Shown here: positions 811 through 45,899 of the stretch, piece after piece
Numbering within the stretch: the stretch's first letter is position 1
How the letters are laid out: each line of letters begins with the position of its first letter
Origin: a bacterium
GTDB lineage: Bacteria > Patescibacteriota > Gracilibacteria > UBA4473
DNA: 45,961 nt
Direction of reading: 5' to 3'
NCBI GenBank assembly: GCA_018648585.1
Contig: JABGQW010000007.1
Span: forward strand, 1 to 45,961
The notes under the pieces: model-generated
Told to the model about the DNA's origin: nothing
The model's database searches: none
Seen by the model: only the letters and a program-made list of their open reading frames with translations
Made by a program: the position numbers and the translations under genes

Positions 811-3189
811 TCAATATCCAAAAATCTGTACCACGTACCAGCCGCCATTTCCGCTCGCGATTCCGACGCCGAGCGAACGCCATTTTCGATTTACCACGTG
901 TGAAAAATGCGACGACGAATCTTCAATTCCCTCGAGTGCGATCTGAAGTGTTGATCCGAAACTGAGATTTTCAGCAAATTCTCCCTGCAAATTTGCCTGC
1001 TGCAATCGATCGGCAAATTTCATTCCCGTGGGACTCGTGTGCCCGAGGAAATTTTCGAGTGCCATTTTTTCTGCGTACTGCTGCGCGAGCGCCTGCAAAT
1101 TTGTGTCGGTCACGACGACGCCGAGTCCGTATTTTTTTCGAATTTTGTTGACCCAATCGCGCACTCCGACAGAACTTTTTCCGCGCAATATTTCGTGCGA
1201 CCACGGCAGCACCGGCAACACAAAATTTTCTGAAAAATAAATTGCTCGATTGAACAAAATTTCGCCCGCGTCCGACGTAATTTCCAAAATGTGCGTTCCC
1301 CACTCCTCCGGCGTCACGCGAAACGAAAACAAATCGAATTCACCGTTCGCGACCGGAATTTCGCGGATTCGTCCCGCCGGCGTTCGCAAAAAAACAGCCG
1401 ATCGAAGTTTTGTGTTTTGATCCAAAATTTTCCCAGACAAAATGAACGATTCCGTCGATCGGAGAAACCGCGAAAAATTATGCACCGAAATTTTTTCCAA
1501 TTCTGTGTCACGAAATCCGGCGACTAATTCGTATTTTTCGTCGGCCAATTTTTTCCAATTTGAAATCTGTCCCGCGAGCGTTCCGTCCGTGGAATCCGCC
1601 ACCGAAACGGAAACGGAGAAAGAATCGCCGTGTGAAAATTTCTCAAAAAAATCGTACGGCAACGACAGCGTCGGAATATTTCCCTCGATCAGCAGCGCCT
1701 CGCGCACCGGATCCTGGGAAAAAATTAATTTCACGAGATTTGACGACGACAGATTTTGAAAATCAAATTTCACCATTTCTTCTTCCGGCACAATTCGCGT
1801 CCCAAATTGAAACGCGGAAAAATCCTGATCGCTCGACGAAAACCGTTTTTCTCGTCTCGGCCGCACGACTTTGATTTCCCCAACACGACTGCGCGTTCCG
1901 TCGTCGATCACGATTCCCATTTTGTACGTTCCCACGTCGAGAAACGCGACCGGAATCACAAAATTTTCGCCCGAAAGTTTGTCCGAAAAATGTTGCTGCT
2001 CGCTGTCCGTTTTTCCGGAAAGAAAAACCGTCACTTTTTCGTGACCAAATGTGTCGACATTTCCAGAAATATTGAGAACGGTTCCCGTCAAAACTTTTTG
2101 TGGAACGGACTGCCGGAGTAAAATATTTTCAAAAAAATCGGGCGAAAGATGTGCGACCGATTCGTCAAAAATTCGCGCGTCGTGAACCGGAGAAATTTTT
2201 TCGATCGTGCCGCGATTTTCCAAAATTTTTGTGGCGACGATTTCAGGGATTTCCGGATTTTTTATCACCGGCGAAACTTTGTCCCGCACAAATTCTGGGA
2301 TTTCGGGATTTTCTTGTTCCGCGCCAGAAAACTGTTCGACCGAAACTTCGATCACGCCACGTTCGAGCGGTGCCAATTCAGCAAACGCCGCCTCCGACAA
2401 ATCGAGAACCCGCGTCCCGACAAACGGCCCGCGATCGTTGACGCGCACGATGATGAAATTTTCATCGGACGAAACTTTCAATCGCGTCCCAAACGGAAGC
2501 GTGCGGTGCGCCGCGGTCATCGACATCGGATCGTATTTTTCGCCGCTGGCGGTCAATTTTCCCGAAAAATCAGAACCGTACCAACTCGCCGCTCCGCTCG
2601 CGCGAAACACAAACGGTTCGGTGAAATTATTTTCTGCAACTTGCTGCGCGCGAAAAATCAGTTCGACTATTTCTCCCCGATCGAGTGCGGCGTACGGTGT
2701 CGGATCGCCATCGATCAATTGCAGTTCCGCCGCTTTTTCAAAAAATGGATCGTACCAAGTTTGATCGCCAGTTGGATCTGGAATTTTGGCACCAAATGCC
2801 GTCATCGCCATTTTCAAAAGTTCTGCCTGCGTCACCTGCGCACTCGGATGAAAATCGCCGTCCGCGAATCCGCGCACGATCGCGAGATTTGCGGCGGTCA
2901 CGACGAACGGATAAAACCAAGAATTTTCCGAAACATCAGAGAACGGATTCTGCGCGTCAGAAATTTCGAAATCCGCTGCCAGCAACAAAACTTTTACCGA
3001 TTCGGCACGCGTGACTTTTTGACTCGATCGAAAAAACTTTTTTCCGCCCTGCAAATATCCGCTGAGAATTTCTTTTTTTTCAAAAAAATCAATCGCCTGA
3101 AAATGCGGATGCGTCACGTCCACATCCGAAAAAGATGCGTGTGCCGCGATCGGCAACAAAAATAAAAGTGCGAGGAATTTTTTTTTCAT
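811..3189 (-). CDS. SLH - RlpA - CAP multidomain cell-surface protein
   Basis: 792 aa with a signal peptide (MKKKFLALLFLLPIAAHA). Three S-layer-homology repeats cover about 20-190 and should bind the cell wall. An RlpA-type double-psi beta-barrel covers about 200-287 (ASWYG, TAAHRTLPFGT, NDRGPF, LDLSEAAF), with the presumed catalytic His228 and Asp252 present. RlpA enzymes cleave peptidoglycan strands lacking stem peptides. A long beta-rich middle follows. The last 120 residues look like a CAP/SCP domain (WVNKIRKKYGL, LGHTSPTG, ENLSFG). The start at 3189 gives the signal peptide; longer in-frame starts do not. A role in daughter-cell separation or wall remodelling is inferred. The combination of all three domain types is unusual. 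Confidence 0.85.
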   Translation of the reverse strand: MKKKFLALLFLLPIAAHASFSDVDVTHPHFQAIDFFEKKEILSGYLQGGKKFFRSSQKVTRAESVKVLLLAADFEISDAQNPFSDVSENSWFYPFVVTAANLAIVRGFADGDFHPSAQVTQAELLKMAMTAFGAKIPDPTGDQTWYDPFFEKAAELQLIDGDPTPYAALDRGEIVELIFRAQQVAENNFTEPFVFRASGAASWYGSDFSGKLTASGEKYDPMSMTAAHRTLPFGTRLKVSSDENFIIVRVNDRGPFVGTRVLDLSEAAFAELAPLERGVIEVSVEQFSGAEQENPEIPEFVRDKVSPVIKNPEIPEIVATKILENRGTIEKISPVHDARIFDESVAHLSPDFFENILLRQSVPQKVLTGTVLNISGNVDTFGHEKVTVFLSGKTDSEQQHFSDKLSGENFVIPVAFLDVGTYKMGIVIDDGTRSRVGEIKVVRPRREKRFSSSDQDFSAFQFGTRIVPEEEMVKFDFQNLSSSNLVKLIFSQDPVREALLIEGNIPTLSLPYDFFEKFSHGDSFSVSVSVADSTDGTLAGQISNWKKLADEKYELVAGFRDTELEKISVHNFSRFLRSTESFILSGKILDQNTKLRSAVFLRTPAGRIREIPVANGEFDLFSFRVTPEEWGTHILEITSDAGEILFNRAIYFSENFVLPVLPWSHEILRGKSSVGVRDWVNKIRKKYGLGVVVTDTNLQALAQQYAEKMALENFLGHTSPTGMKFADRLQQANLQGEFAENLSFGSTLQIALEGIEDSSSHFSHVVNRKWRSLGVGIASGNGGWYVVQIFGY

Positions 3190-42357: not shown

Positions 42358-42394
42358 GAATCTCCCCCTTTTTTAAAGGGGACTGGGAGGATTT
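42358..42394. repeat. Palindromic repeat after gatB, possible terminator
   Basis: AATCTCCC and GGGAGGATT form outer arms; CCCCCTTTTT and AAAGGGG form inner arms. Short repeats of this type recur in CPR genomes (from general knowledge). It lies just after the gatB stop and may end that transcript. Confidence 0.55.
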
Positions 42395-43847
42395 AATTTT
42401 TTATTTTTAATTTCTCCAAAAGCATCTGCTGCAAAACCTCCGGATTCGCACTCCCGCGCGAAAGTTTCATCACCTGCCCGACGAGAAATCCGAGCACTTT
42501 TTCTTTTCCCGATTGAAACTGCGCCACCGTTTCTGGATTTTTTTTCAAAACCTGCGCGATCCAATTTTCAATTTCGTCCGAATCGGAAACCTGCTCGAGT
42601 CCCAGCTCCGCGATCAAATTTTCGATTTTCCCGCCCGACTCCATCGCGGATTCCAAAAGCTGTTTTCCGCCGCTCGACGACACCGCGCCATTTTTCAAAA
42701 ACTGAACCACGTCCGCCGCGTGCTCCGGCGTAATTTTAGAATTTTGCCAATTCTCGTGCGAGAGAATCACGGACAAAATTAAGTTCGCGGATTTTTTTGG
42801 ATCGTCGGAAATCTCCACAACTTTTTCAAAAAATGCTGCCAACTCCGGCGAATCCGAAAGTTTGAGCGCGTCGAGTTCTGAGATTTTAAAAACATTTTTG
42901 TACCGAAAAAATTTTTCAATCGGCAGTTCCGGCAGCGTTTCTGAAATTTCTTCAATTTCTTTTTTTGAAAATTCAATCGGCGGCAAATCCGGTTCCGGAA
43001 AATATCGGTAGTCGTCCTGACTTTCTTTTTTTCGCAAAAACAACGTCTCCCCTCTTTCGTCGTCCCAACCGCGCGTCGAGTCGCAATCCGGGATTTCATT
43101 TTTTTCCCACAATTTTGTCTGCCGTTTTATTTCGAAATTCAACGCATTTTCGAGCGCCGCAAACGAGTTGAGATTTTTAATTTCTGATCGAGGAAAAAGT
43201 TTTTTGTCCCCCATTTTTCGCAGCGAAATCGACGCATCGAACCGCATCATTCCTTTTTCCATGTCCGCAGCAGAAACTTTTGTCGCGCGCAAAATTTTCT
43301 GAATTTCCTGCGCGAGTGCCCGCGCCTCGATCGGCGATCGCAGTTCTGGCTCGGTAACAATTTCGATCAGCGGCGCACCGGAACGGTTAAAATCCACGAG
43401 CGTCGAAGTTTTTGTGTGTGTATTTTTTCCCGCATCATTTTCGAGATGCACGCGCGTGATCCGGATTTTTTTCTGCTGAAATTTCCCAACATTTCCGTGC
43501 GCGTCCCGCTCGGCCGGAACGAGAATTTTTATTTCGCCCCGCAGCGCGAGCGGCTGATCGTACTGCGAGATTTGGTACCCGAGCGGCAGATCCGGATAAA
43601 AATAATTTTTTCGATCAAATTTTGAAAATTCCTGAATTTCACACCCGAGCGCCGCAGCGCCGCGGACAGATTTTTGCAGCGCGTCGCGATTCAAAACCGG
43701 CAACATTCCGGGAAATCCGGTGCAGACCGGGCAGATCCGCGAATTTGGTTCCGCACCAAACGCGTCATTGTCGCAGCCGCACCACAATTTCGATTTTGTG
43801 GAAAGTTGCGCGTGAATTTCGAGACCGATGACTGTTTCAAGTTCCAT
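42393..43847 (-). CDS. gatB: Asp/Glu-tRNA amidotransferase subunit B
   Basis: 484 aa. TVIGLEIHAQLSTKSKLWCGC at the N terminus, the zinc site CGC plus ICPVC, DRKNYFYPDLPLGYQISQ, and LVDFNRSGAPLIEIVTEPE, then the helical tail and YqeY domain. It activates the misacylated tRNA and transfers the amide supplied by GatA. It is separate from gatC-gatA by 12 kb. The last residues (LLEKLKIKN) come from the A/T-rich repeat. The promoter lies only 7 nt before its ATG. Confidence 0.96.
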   Translation of the reverse strand: MELETVIGLEIHAQLSTKSKLWCGCDNDAFGAEPNSRICPVCTGFPGMLPVLNRDALQKSVRGAAALGCEIQEFSKFDRKNYFYPDLPLGYQISQYDQPLALRGEIKILVPAERDAHGNVGKFQQKKIRITRVHLENDAGKNTHTKTSTLVDFNRSGAPLIEIVTEPELRSPIEARALAQEIQKILRATKVSAADMEKGMMRFDASISLRKMGDKKLFPRSEIKNLNSFAALENALNFEIKRQTKLWEKNEIPDCDSTRGWDDERGETLFLRKKESQDDYRYFPEPDLPPIEFSKKEIEEISETLPELPIEKFFRYKNVFKISELDALKLSDSPELAAFFEKVVEISDDPKKSANLILSVILSHENWQNSKITPEHAADVVQFLKNGAVSSSGGKQLLESAMESGGKIENLIAELGLEQVSDSDEIENWIAQVLKKNPETVAQFQSGKEKVLGFLVGQVMKLSRGSANPEVLQQMLLEKLKIKN

Positions 43848-43854
43848 CGTCGAA

Positions 43855-43882
43855 ATTGTACTCGCTCCCGCACATTTCGCAA
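43855..43882 (-). promoter_or_regulatory. gatB promoter (leaderless)
   Basis: TTGCGA (43877-43882), 16-bp spacer, TACAAT (43855-43860) on the minus strand, 7 nt before the start codon. The -35 hexamer is the same as for pgk. Confidence 0.65.
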
Positions 43883-43896
43883 AAAATTCAAATTAT

Positions 43897-43924
43897 TTGA
43901 CATTTGAGAAATTTTGAACAAAAT
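43897..43924 (+). promoter_or_regulatory. Promoter of the putative ncRNA
   Basis: TTGACA (43897-43902), 16-bp spacer, CAAAAT (43919-43924; 4 of 6 to the -10 consensus). Transcription would start near 43931. Confidence 0.4.
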
Positions 43925-43930
43925 GCAAGA

Positions 43931-44218
43931 AGACTCAATCTTTTGTGAAAAAAGAAATCGAGCGATCTTCTTTTTTTCAAAACCGAGTTCTCGATCTTTT
44001 ACTTGTTTTGATCATTCTTTTTCAAAAAAATTGCCTGCAATCACGAGATTTCGAAATGAAGTTTTGTGGATGCAGGTAGTTTGAATCCTGCGCGAGTTTT
44101 TAATCAGACAATTTTTAAAAAATTTTAAAAATTGTCACAAAAAAATGGAGGAAAAATTAATCGATTTTTGCAAAAGATCAAGTTATTTTGGAACCGTGCA
44201 AACGCGCGGTTCCTTTTT
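43931..44218 (+). ncRNA. Putative structured non-coding RNA
   Basis: About 290 nt between divergent gatB and pgk, bounded by a promoter and a strong terminator although no plus-strand gene lies between them. Inside: a hairpin followed by T7 at 43951-43977; CCTGCA (44033-44038) that can pair with TGCAGG (44071-44076), which can instead pair with CCTGC just downstream; and a 10-bp hairpin at 44107-44136. The exchange of pairing resembles a switch or attenuator. I find no match to 6S, RNase P, tmRNA or SRP signatures by eye. A 28-codon ORF at 44145 runs into the terminator and is not convincing. Confidence 0.4.
44190..44218 (+). terminator. Strong terminator of the ncRNA
   Basis: GGAACCGTGC pairs with GCGCGGTTCC (10 bp, one G-U) around AAAC, followed by six T. 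It faces the plus strand ahead of the pgk promoter. Confidence 0.85.
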
Positions 44219-44239
44219 TCTGTGTTTTTAAAAAAAAAG

Positions 44240-44267
44240 TTGCGACTCTCCTCGACTCTTTTAAAAT
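44240..44267 (+). promoter_or_regulatory. pgk promoter (leaderless)
   Basis: TTGCGA (44240-44245), 16-bp spacer, TAAAAT (44262-44267), 7 nt before ATG 44275. Confidence 0.65.
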
Positions 44268-44274
44268 CTGAACG

Positions 44275-45435
44275 ATGAAAATAAAAACACTGACTCCGGA
44301 ACTCGTCGCGGGAAAAATTGTGCTCGTGCGCGTCGATTTCAACGTTCCGCTCAAAAACGGAAAAATCACCGAAAAAACTCGCATCGTCGAGTCACTCCCC
44401 ACGCTCGAATTTTTGCTGAAAAATGGCGCGAAAAAAATTCACCTGCTCGCGCATCTCGGTCGCCCCGGCGGAAAAATTTGTCCCGAGTTTTCACTCGCGC
44501 CCGTCGCCGCGGAGTTGGAAAAATTACTGAAAAAACCAGTCGAATTTCGATCCGATTTCACGGCCGGATCCGGAAAAATTCAGCTGCACGAAAATGTGCG
44601 ATTTTATCCCGGGGAGAAAAAAAATGATCCGGCGCTCGCGACAGAAATCTTGGAAAAAACCGGCGCGGAAATTTTTGTGAACGACGGATTTGGCGTGTCG
44701 CACCGCGCACAAACTTCGGTGATCGGATTTTCTGGAAAAATTCCGTGCGTCGCGGGAAAACTCGTCGAAAAAGAAATCGAACATTTGTCGCCATTTTTGA
44801 GTGCGGAAAAAATCCCCGGACTCACGGTCGCCGTCGGCGGCGTAAAAATGGAAACAAAAGTCGCCGTGCTGAAACATTTTTGCCAGATCGCAGAAAACGT
44901 GATCATCGGCGGCGCGCTCGCCAACACGTTTTTGGCGGCGCAGGGATTCGACATCGGAGAAAGTTTGTGCGAATCAGATTTTGCAAAAATGGCGCGCGAA
45001 GTTTTGGAAATCGCAGAAACGCACAAAACCGCCGTGCATCTCCCGATCGACGTGCAATGCGCGGACGATCCGGACGGCAAATCGGTGTACTTGCCGACGG
45101 AGGACGTCGCAGGAAGTTTGAAAATTTTTGACATCGGGCCACACTCGATCGCCAGTTATCGCGAAGTTTTGAAACATTCAAAAGTTGTGATCTGGAACGG
45201 ACCGCTGGGATTTTTCGAAAAACCGCCGTTTGATTCTGGAACCCGCGCGATCGCGGAAGAAATCGCGCAAAATCAATCGGCAAAAACAATTCTCGGCGGC
45301 GGCGACACGCTCGGCGTTTTGAAACAATTTGGAATTGAAAAATCAAAATTCACGCACGTTTCGACCGGCGGCGGCGCGATGCTCGAGTTTTTGGAAGGAA
45401 AAAAACTTCCCGGAATCGAGATTTTGAAAACGTGA
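44275..45435 (+). CDS. pgk: Phosphoglycerate kinase
   Basis: 386 aa, the normal length. VLVRVDFNVPLKNGKITEKTRI at the N terminus, HLLAHLGRPGG, LHENVRFYPGE, FVNDGFGVSHRAQTS, KPPFDSGTRAIAEEI and the C-terminal GGGDTLGVLKQFG, VSTGGGAMLEFLEG. It makes ATP from 1,3-bisphosphoglycerate in glycolysis, the expected energy source of a fermenter together with the LDH. Transcribed alone from a leaderless promoter. Confidence 0.97.
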   Translation: MKIKTLTPELVAGKIVLVRVDFNVPLKNGKITEKTRIVESLPTLEFLLKNGAKKIHLLAHLGRPGGKICPEFSLAPVAAELEKLLKKPVEFRSDFTAGSGKIQLHENVRFYPGEKKNDPALATEILEKTGAEIFVNDGFGVSHRAQTSVIGFSGKIPCVAGKLVEKEIEHLSPFLSAEKIPGLTVAVGGVKMETKVAVLKHFCQIAENVIIGGALANTFLAAQGFDIGESLCESDFAKMAREVLEIAETHKTAVHLPIDVQCADDPDGKSVYLPTEDVAGSLKIFDIGPHSIASYREVLKHSKVVIWNGPLGFFEKPPFDSGTRAIAEEIAQNQSAKTILGGGDTLGVLKQFGIEKSKFTHVSTGGGAMLEFLEGKKLPGIEILKT

Positions 45436-45602: not shown

Positions 45603-45899
45603 TTATCGCGCCGCTTGCTTCCTCCGTTTTTGAATAATCAAAAGGAGAAGAATCCCAAAAACTGATAATACAATTATTCCTAATAAAACACATAAAAAAA
45701 TTAAATCATATTTCAAATAACACGGTATTGAGTTTAAAATATCTGAATTCTCATAAAAACAAGGAAAAAATATATTCATTAATTTCCCAAAACACATTCC
45801 TCCATTATTTACCATCACTATTTCCATCAAACACAGAAATATTGACAAGATTGTTACAAAAATAAGAATTCTTATTTTATGCTGTAATTTATTTCTCAT
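45603..45899 (-). CDS. Small two-helix membrane protein
   Basis: 98 aa. Two hydrophobic segments, about 9-30 (IRILIFVTILSIFLCLMEIVMV) and about 66-90 (LIFLCVLLGIIVLSVFGILLLLII), then a basic tail KRRKQAAR. Four Cys lie in and around the outer loop (GMCFG, PCFYEN, PCYLK). No family recognised. Its 5' end lies 12 nt from the terminal repeat. Confidence 0.65.
   Translation of the reverse strand: MRNKLQHKIRILIFVTILSIFLCLMEIVMVNNGGMCFGKLMNIFFPCFYENSDILNSIPCYLKYDLIFLCVLLGIIVLSVFGILLLLIIQKRRKQAAR

Follow-up and report, generated by a model that had tools for sequence, protein, structure and literature searches.

Free-standing small RNAs encoded between bacterial genes have their own promoter, a stable hairpin and an intrinsic terminator, and contain no open reading frame; leaders of the terminator/antiterminator type, among them amino-acid attenuators and riboswitches, contain segments that can pair in two mutually exclusive ways. 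Little has been described of regulatory RNAs in the Candidate Phyla Radiation, and in the open-access literature, as judged from titles and the opening parts of abstracts (PMC11665869 included), no small RNA or riboswitch of Gracilibacteria and no Candidate Phyla Radiation structured RNA of such a kind was found. The spacer between gatB and pgk in the window (the whole stretch of 45,961 nucleotides, contig C8 of genome G000) bears comparison with both types of RNA. With a probability of about 0.5, it encodes an orphan, lineage-specific structured RNA that is free-standing in G000 and related to an mRNA leader in a sister genome, G001.

The genome that contains the window totals 1,047,330 bases, and the closest GatB among named genomes is that of Candidatus Gracilibacteria (72% to JAIPIF010000003.1). 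The divergent arrangement of gatB (minus strand) and pgk (plus strand) is common to many family members, with a spacer of 87 to 1560 bases in 12 genomes including G000. Elsewhere in the window, positions 45603-45899 of the minus strand contain a 98-residue open reading frame that resembles a membrane protein and has no Pfam match. The features of the spacer and its surroundings are as follows.

42393..43847, minus strand: gatB (Pfam GatB_N and GatB_Yqey)
43855..43882, minus strand: gatB promoter, TTGCGA-16-TACAAT, ending 7 nt before the gatB ATG
43863..44181, plus strand: stretch homologous to the G001 element, 198 of 280 aligned columns identical
43897..43924, plus strand: sigma-70-like promoter of the RNA, TTGACA-N16-CAAAAT, 10 of 12 positions matching
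43931..44219, plus strand: putative RNA of about 289 nt, predicted from promoter, terminator and fold z score
43947..43977, plus strand: hairpin H1, GAAATC..GAT.TTC, containing a T7 run, pairs kept in G001
44030..44080, plus strand: hairpin H2, arms UUGCCUGCA / UGCAGGYAR, the best supported structure
44034..44039, plus strand: segment A, CCTGCA
44071..44076, plus strand: segment B, TGCAGG
44087..44091, plus strand: segment C, CCTGC, which could pair with B, kept in G001 as CCTGTGATTTTT
44097..44101, plus strand: T5 tract after segment C
44107..44136, plus strand: hairpin H3, GAC...GTC, matched in position but not in letters by a hairpin of G001
44147..44153, plus strand: conserved GGAGGAA box, with no start codon at Shine-Dalgarno distance
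44190..44219, plus strand: intrinsic terminator, 10-pair stem (7 G-C), loop of 4, then T6
44240..44267, plus strand: pgk promoter, TTGCGA-16-TAAAAT, ending 7 nt before the pgk ATG
44275..45435, plus strand: pgk (Pfam PGK)

The earlier note, made from the sequence alone, had described a promoter and a strong terminator enclosing about 290 nt without a protein gene, and such a noncoding stretch, the layout of a free-standing small RNA, is indeed present in the window. Transcription would start near 43931, downstream of a promoter that is conserved in G001 as TTGACA..CAAAATGCA. Because the region has eight promoter-like sites where shuffles predict 3.9, the promoter match alone proves little; the terminator at 44190-44219 is the strongest of four terminator-like sites, with 6.2 expected in shuffles. 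Complementary segments of the A/B/C type arise by chance in 83 of 3000 shuffled spacers, so that the triad by itself is modest evidence. The promoter and terminator scans lie near the shuffle level, and with the triad they alone would leave the case open.

Since G000 has its own terminator, the RNA is expected to be transcribed on its own, as a product of about 289 nt that would end at 44219, upstream of the pgk promoter, and would not feed into pgk. The terminator and the separate pgk promoter thus support the independence from pgk that had been proposed. The same note had given pgk a leaderless promoter of its own: the promoter holds, with TAAAAT (44262-44267) 7 nt before the ATG, and leaderless expression is plausible because the geometry is identical in G001 and G002.

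What carries the case is homology. The sister genome G001 is one other genome of the same genus, with Pgk 69% and GatB 72% identical to those of G000, and its gatB/pgk spacer of 1560 bases carries the same element, including the promoter, from upstream of the -35 box to beyond the GGAGGAA box. The homologue was recognised by reading syntenic spacers; among the matches listed in a DNA comparison of the spacer with 60 relatives, those outside its own genome were short and weak and did not include the G001 homologue. In strict local alignment on the same strand, the two elements score 99, against a mean of 37 and a maximum of 57 in 500 shuffles, and the alignment of relatives that had been suggested as a check finds the element conserved in G001. 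Two other alignments (A1 and A2) misplace the 3' third of the element, where the strict local alignment is better. Four-fold degenerate sites are identical between G000 and G001 at 60 of 148 positions in gatB and 67 of 137 in pgk (41-49%), and silent change has therefore been heavy; the 71% column identity of the element comes from an optimised alignment and is not strictly comparable with these figures.

Folding agrees with the proposal of a structured RNA, as do the promoter and structure conserved in the same spacer of G001. The stretch 43931-44220 is more stable than all of 200 shuffles (z -6.92), mostly owing to H2 (z -7.3) and H3 (z -3.3). H2 is also stable in G001 (z -5.8), none of 500 shuffles equalling its stability in either species, and 18 of its 21 pairs are standard there, one being changed on both sides and five on one side; the remaining three become A-C. 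As the element occurs in two species only, evidence from covariation is thin. The fold of H3 is strong in the window and not in G001 (z +0.43, 317 of 500 shuffles as stable), so that H3 is supported in the window only, and the whole 237-nt element of G001 is not clearly better than shuffles (z -1.46, 38 of 500 as stable). An internal hairpin with a T7 run, also proposed earlier, is present as H1, but the run lies inside the stem and the stability is at the shuffle level (61 of 500 shuffles as stable in the window; 211 of 500 in G001, z -0.05).

The element is a single-copy feature of one genus. Two structure models, R1 of the whole element and R2 from the promoter to H2, recover the G000 and G001 copies at 196-295 bits, with other matches listed at no more than 37 bits and no comparable second site in G000. 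At E <= 1e-4, R2 matched 2 of 353 genomes of the class, both in genus g1, in a search whose stricter filters may miss weaker hits. Hits of R1 and R2 at about 20-37 bits were regarded as background, the inspected ones having large internal gaps, being weakly aligned or lying on the opposite strand of the element; pattern matches in G004, G008 and G014, unconfirmed by R2 at E <= 0.01, were attributed to chance. In the 1500 bases upstream of pgk at 19 family loci, L011 of G001 alone matches both elements; L026 of G004, whose z was 4.3 against the window element and -0.2 against that of G001, was not counted. There was no element match among phages. Plasmids gave one unconvincing 37-base match, to one Spiroplasma plasmid, and viral contigs gave no H1-pattern match and four exact H2-pattern matches, none supported by R1.

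The spacer would accordingly be read as the gene of a structured RNA, single-copy and restricted to one genus, with a promoter of its own, a strongly constrained H2 and, in G000, its own terminator. The most likely role of its RNA is that of a small RNA which would bind a protein or a second RNA by means of H2 and the nearby conserved blocks. In G001 the same module would form the 5' portion of the mRNA for a 149-residue protein, and one of these two states, free-standing or leader, probably derives from the other.

This protein is the basis of the closest rival, a possible but less probable one, in which the element is a cis-acting leader (attenuator or riboswitch-like) of the 149-residue gene, and the gene has been lost from the window, where the leader now meets a terminator. 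In G001 the element runs directly into the open reading frame, with no terminator between them in the sequence; the protein has a signal-peptide-like start, as judged by eye, and its frame is followed, before pgk, by a GGGA..TCCC hairpin and T5. Because the G001 element looks like a leader, its conservation may go back to a role as leader that was lost in G000. The conservation of segments A, B and C, and of the T5 that follows C, resembles that of terminator/antiterminator leaders, and a long leader looks out of the ordinary next to genes whose -10-like element lies near the start codon. Against this reading, H2 is intact in the window even without a gene for it to control, and G000 yields no relative of the 149-residue protein at E <= 1. 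A weak Pfam match of this protein to TIM (E 0.012, below the cut-off) was rejected, being unsupported by PDB sequences and NCBIfam. Upstream of the element, G001 has a GC-rich hairpin with a T run. Also upstream in the G001 spacer (L054, about 2340-2450, minus strand) is a 29-codon open reading frame whose ATG is preceded by a canonical AAGGAGGT box and which is followed by a GC-rich terminator-like hairpin; this is unexpected given a 16S rRNA that lacks CCTCC, and the frame is perhaps foreign.

The energetics of the switch also weigh against the leader. The earlier note's three segments able to pair in two exclusive ways are present, and the CCTGCA/TGCAGG/CCTG triad is conserved in G001, but switching itself is only weakly supported. 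H2 is favoured over the alternative by about 20 kcal/mol (-27.7 against -7.8), and the equilibrium probability is 1.0 for A:B and 4e-5 in the window or 2e-5 in G001 for B:C, so a self-acting switch is not supported. A and B are transcribed before C, and the H2 pairing forms first. The T5 tract is separated from the short stem, and the terminator scan of the window called no terminator at 44097. A gated switch would need a bound partner blocking segment A (the 5' arm); otherwise there would be none. Because the switch fails on energetics, a free-standing RNA is favoured over an orphaned leader. It is unlikely that both aspects combine in a new class of regulatory RNA confined to a single genus of Gracilibacteria, with a gated terminator/antiterminator leader of a secreted protein (responding to a ligand or protein) as one state and a free-standing regulator, freed by a terminator, as the other.

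Equally improbable is that the spacer has no functional RNA and is instead AT-rich divergent promoter DNA whose hairpins arose by chance, or the remnant of an old insertion. The restriction to two genomes, the frequency of the triad in shuffles and the many weak model matches that the AT-rich background yields in the window (R1 matches elsewhere in it reach 19 bits) would suit such an origin, but the alignment and the H2 statistics in both species speak against it, as does conservation that extends far beyond the promoter.

A diverged housekeeping RNA is very unlikely: the length loosely fits a large SRP RNA, and the small and large bacterial Rfam models for SRP RNA (RF00169 and RF01854) each matched 0 of 21 genomes, but a universal RNA would not be limited to one genus, and G000 has RNase P RNA (RF00010, G000:C24:7495-7867), tmRNA (RF00023, G000:C21:50215-50632) and a 6S RNA candidate (G000:C24:1292-1450) elsewhere. 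The covariance search that the earlier note had recommended returned no known family, since none of the 4227 families of Rfam 15 matched the window at gathering score; the best score at the element, 24.6 bits for Leu_leader with 50 needed, rests on the terminator. ARAGORN found nothing in the window. The 6S candidate (in L170) scores 37.2 bits with a cut-off of 46.4 and lies near the 16S and RNase P genes, as in G001; it was not listed genome-wide at E <= 1e-3 and was shown by a smaller search. Matches to 6S RNA below the cut-off occurred in 7 of 21 genomes. The SRP RNA of G000 and 20 relatives is either lost or too diverged.

Just as remote is a small protein gene, starting at 43923 or after the GGAGGAA box: a plus-strand frame ending at 44084 exists (56 residues from TTG, 53 from the ATG at 43923), but it starts at the -10 element, has no Pfam match and is lost in G001, where the counterpart of its ATG meets a stop after 8 codons, and in neither species does an ATG or GTG follow the box at a usable distance. 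Pairing of the box with the 16S tail was also dropped, because the tail lacks CCTCC and the predicted ensemble has the box largely paired.

The 16S rRNA tail is itself unusual. The 16S rRNA of bacteria usually ends in GGCTGGATCACCTCCTTTA. The 3' ends in G000 (L170:4440-4520, on C24, minus strand) and G001 (L171 and L047), taken where RF00177 matches cover the full model (1-1533), read GGATGGAATACCGCCTTTA, with CCGCC replacing CCTCC; thus both species of the genus have ACCGCC, and the preceding GATCA reads GAATA. The ends are GGATGGATCATCGCCTTTTC (ATCGCC) in G012 (L052) and TGGATCAATTAAATTTTC (AT-rich tail) in G045 (L151). The canonical anti-Shine-Dalgarno CCTCC is absent from all four genomes with a readable 16S end, a further 18 stretches having no 16S end by the pattern used. 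Open-access sources on the anti-Shine-Dalgarno and Shine-Dalgarno sequences of Patescibacteria, Gracilibacteria and the Candidate Phyla Radiation (PMC6851277 and PMC10582724 included) did not describe the altered tail in the parts consulted. A TAnnnT motif ends 5-9 nt before the start codon at 7 of 19 listed pgk starts (the window's own included) and 7 of 13 listed gatB starts, raw counts in AT-rich DNA, and open reading frames in the window have few Shine-Dalgarno-like boxes. Leaderless messages are likely to be widespread, in keeping with the altered anti-Shine-Dalgarno sequence.

The finding is modest and lineage-specific; it gives RNA sequencing a concrete target, a conserved orphan RNA within a genome of roughly 1 Mb. 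Among known systems, it is like terminator/antiterminator leaders in that its three segments are conserved in two species, with T5 after the third and a gene following in G001. It is unlike them in having no conserved leader peptide, an alternative pairing that is far too weak, a T tract off the stem and, in the window, a strong terminator in place of a controlled gene. Like 6S RNA (RF00013) it is structured and intergenic, but both species have a separate 6S candidate by the 16S and RNase P genes. With free-standing bacterial small RNAs, the window element, unmatched at gathering score among 4227 Rfam families, shares the same layout.
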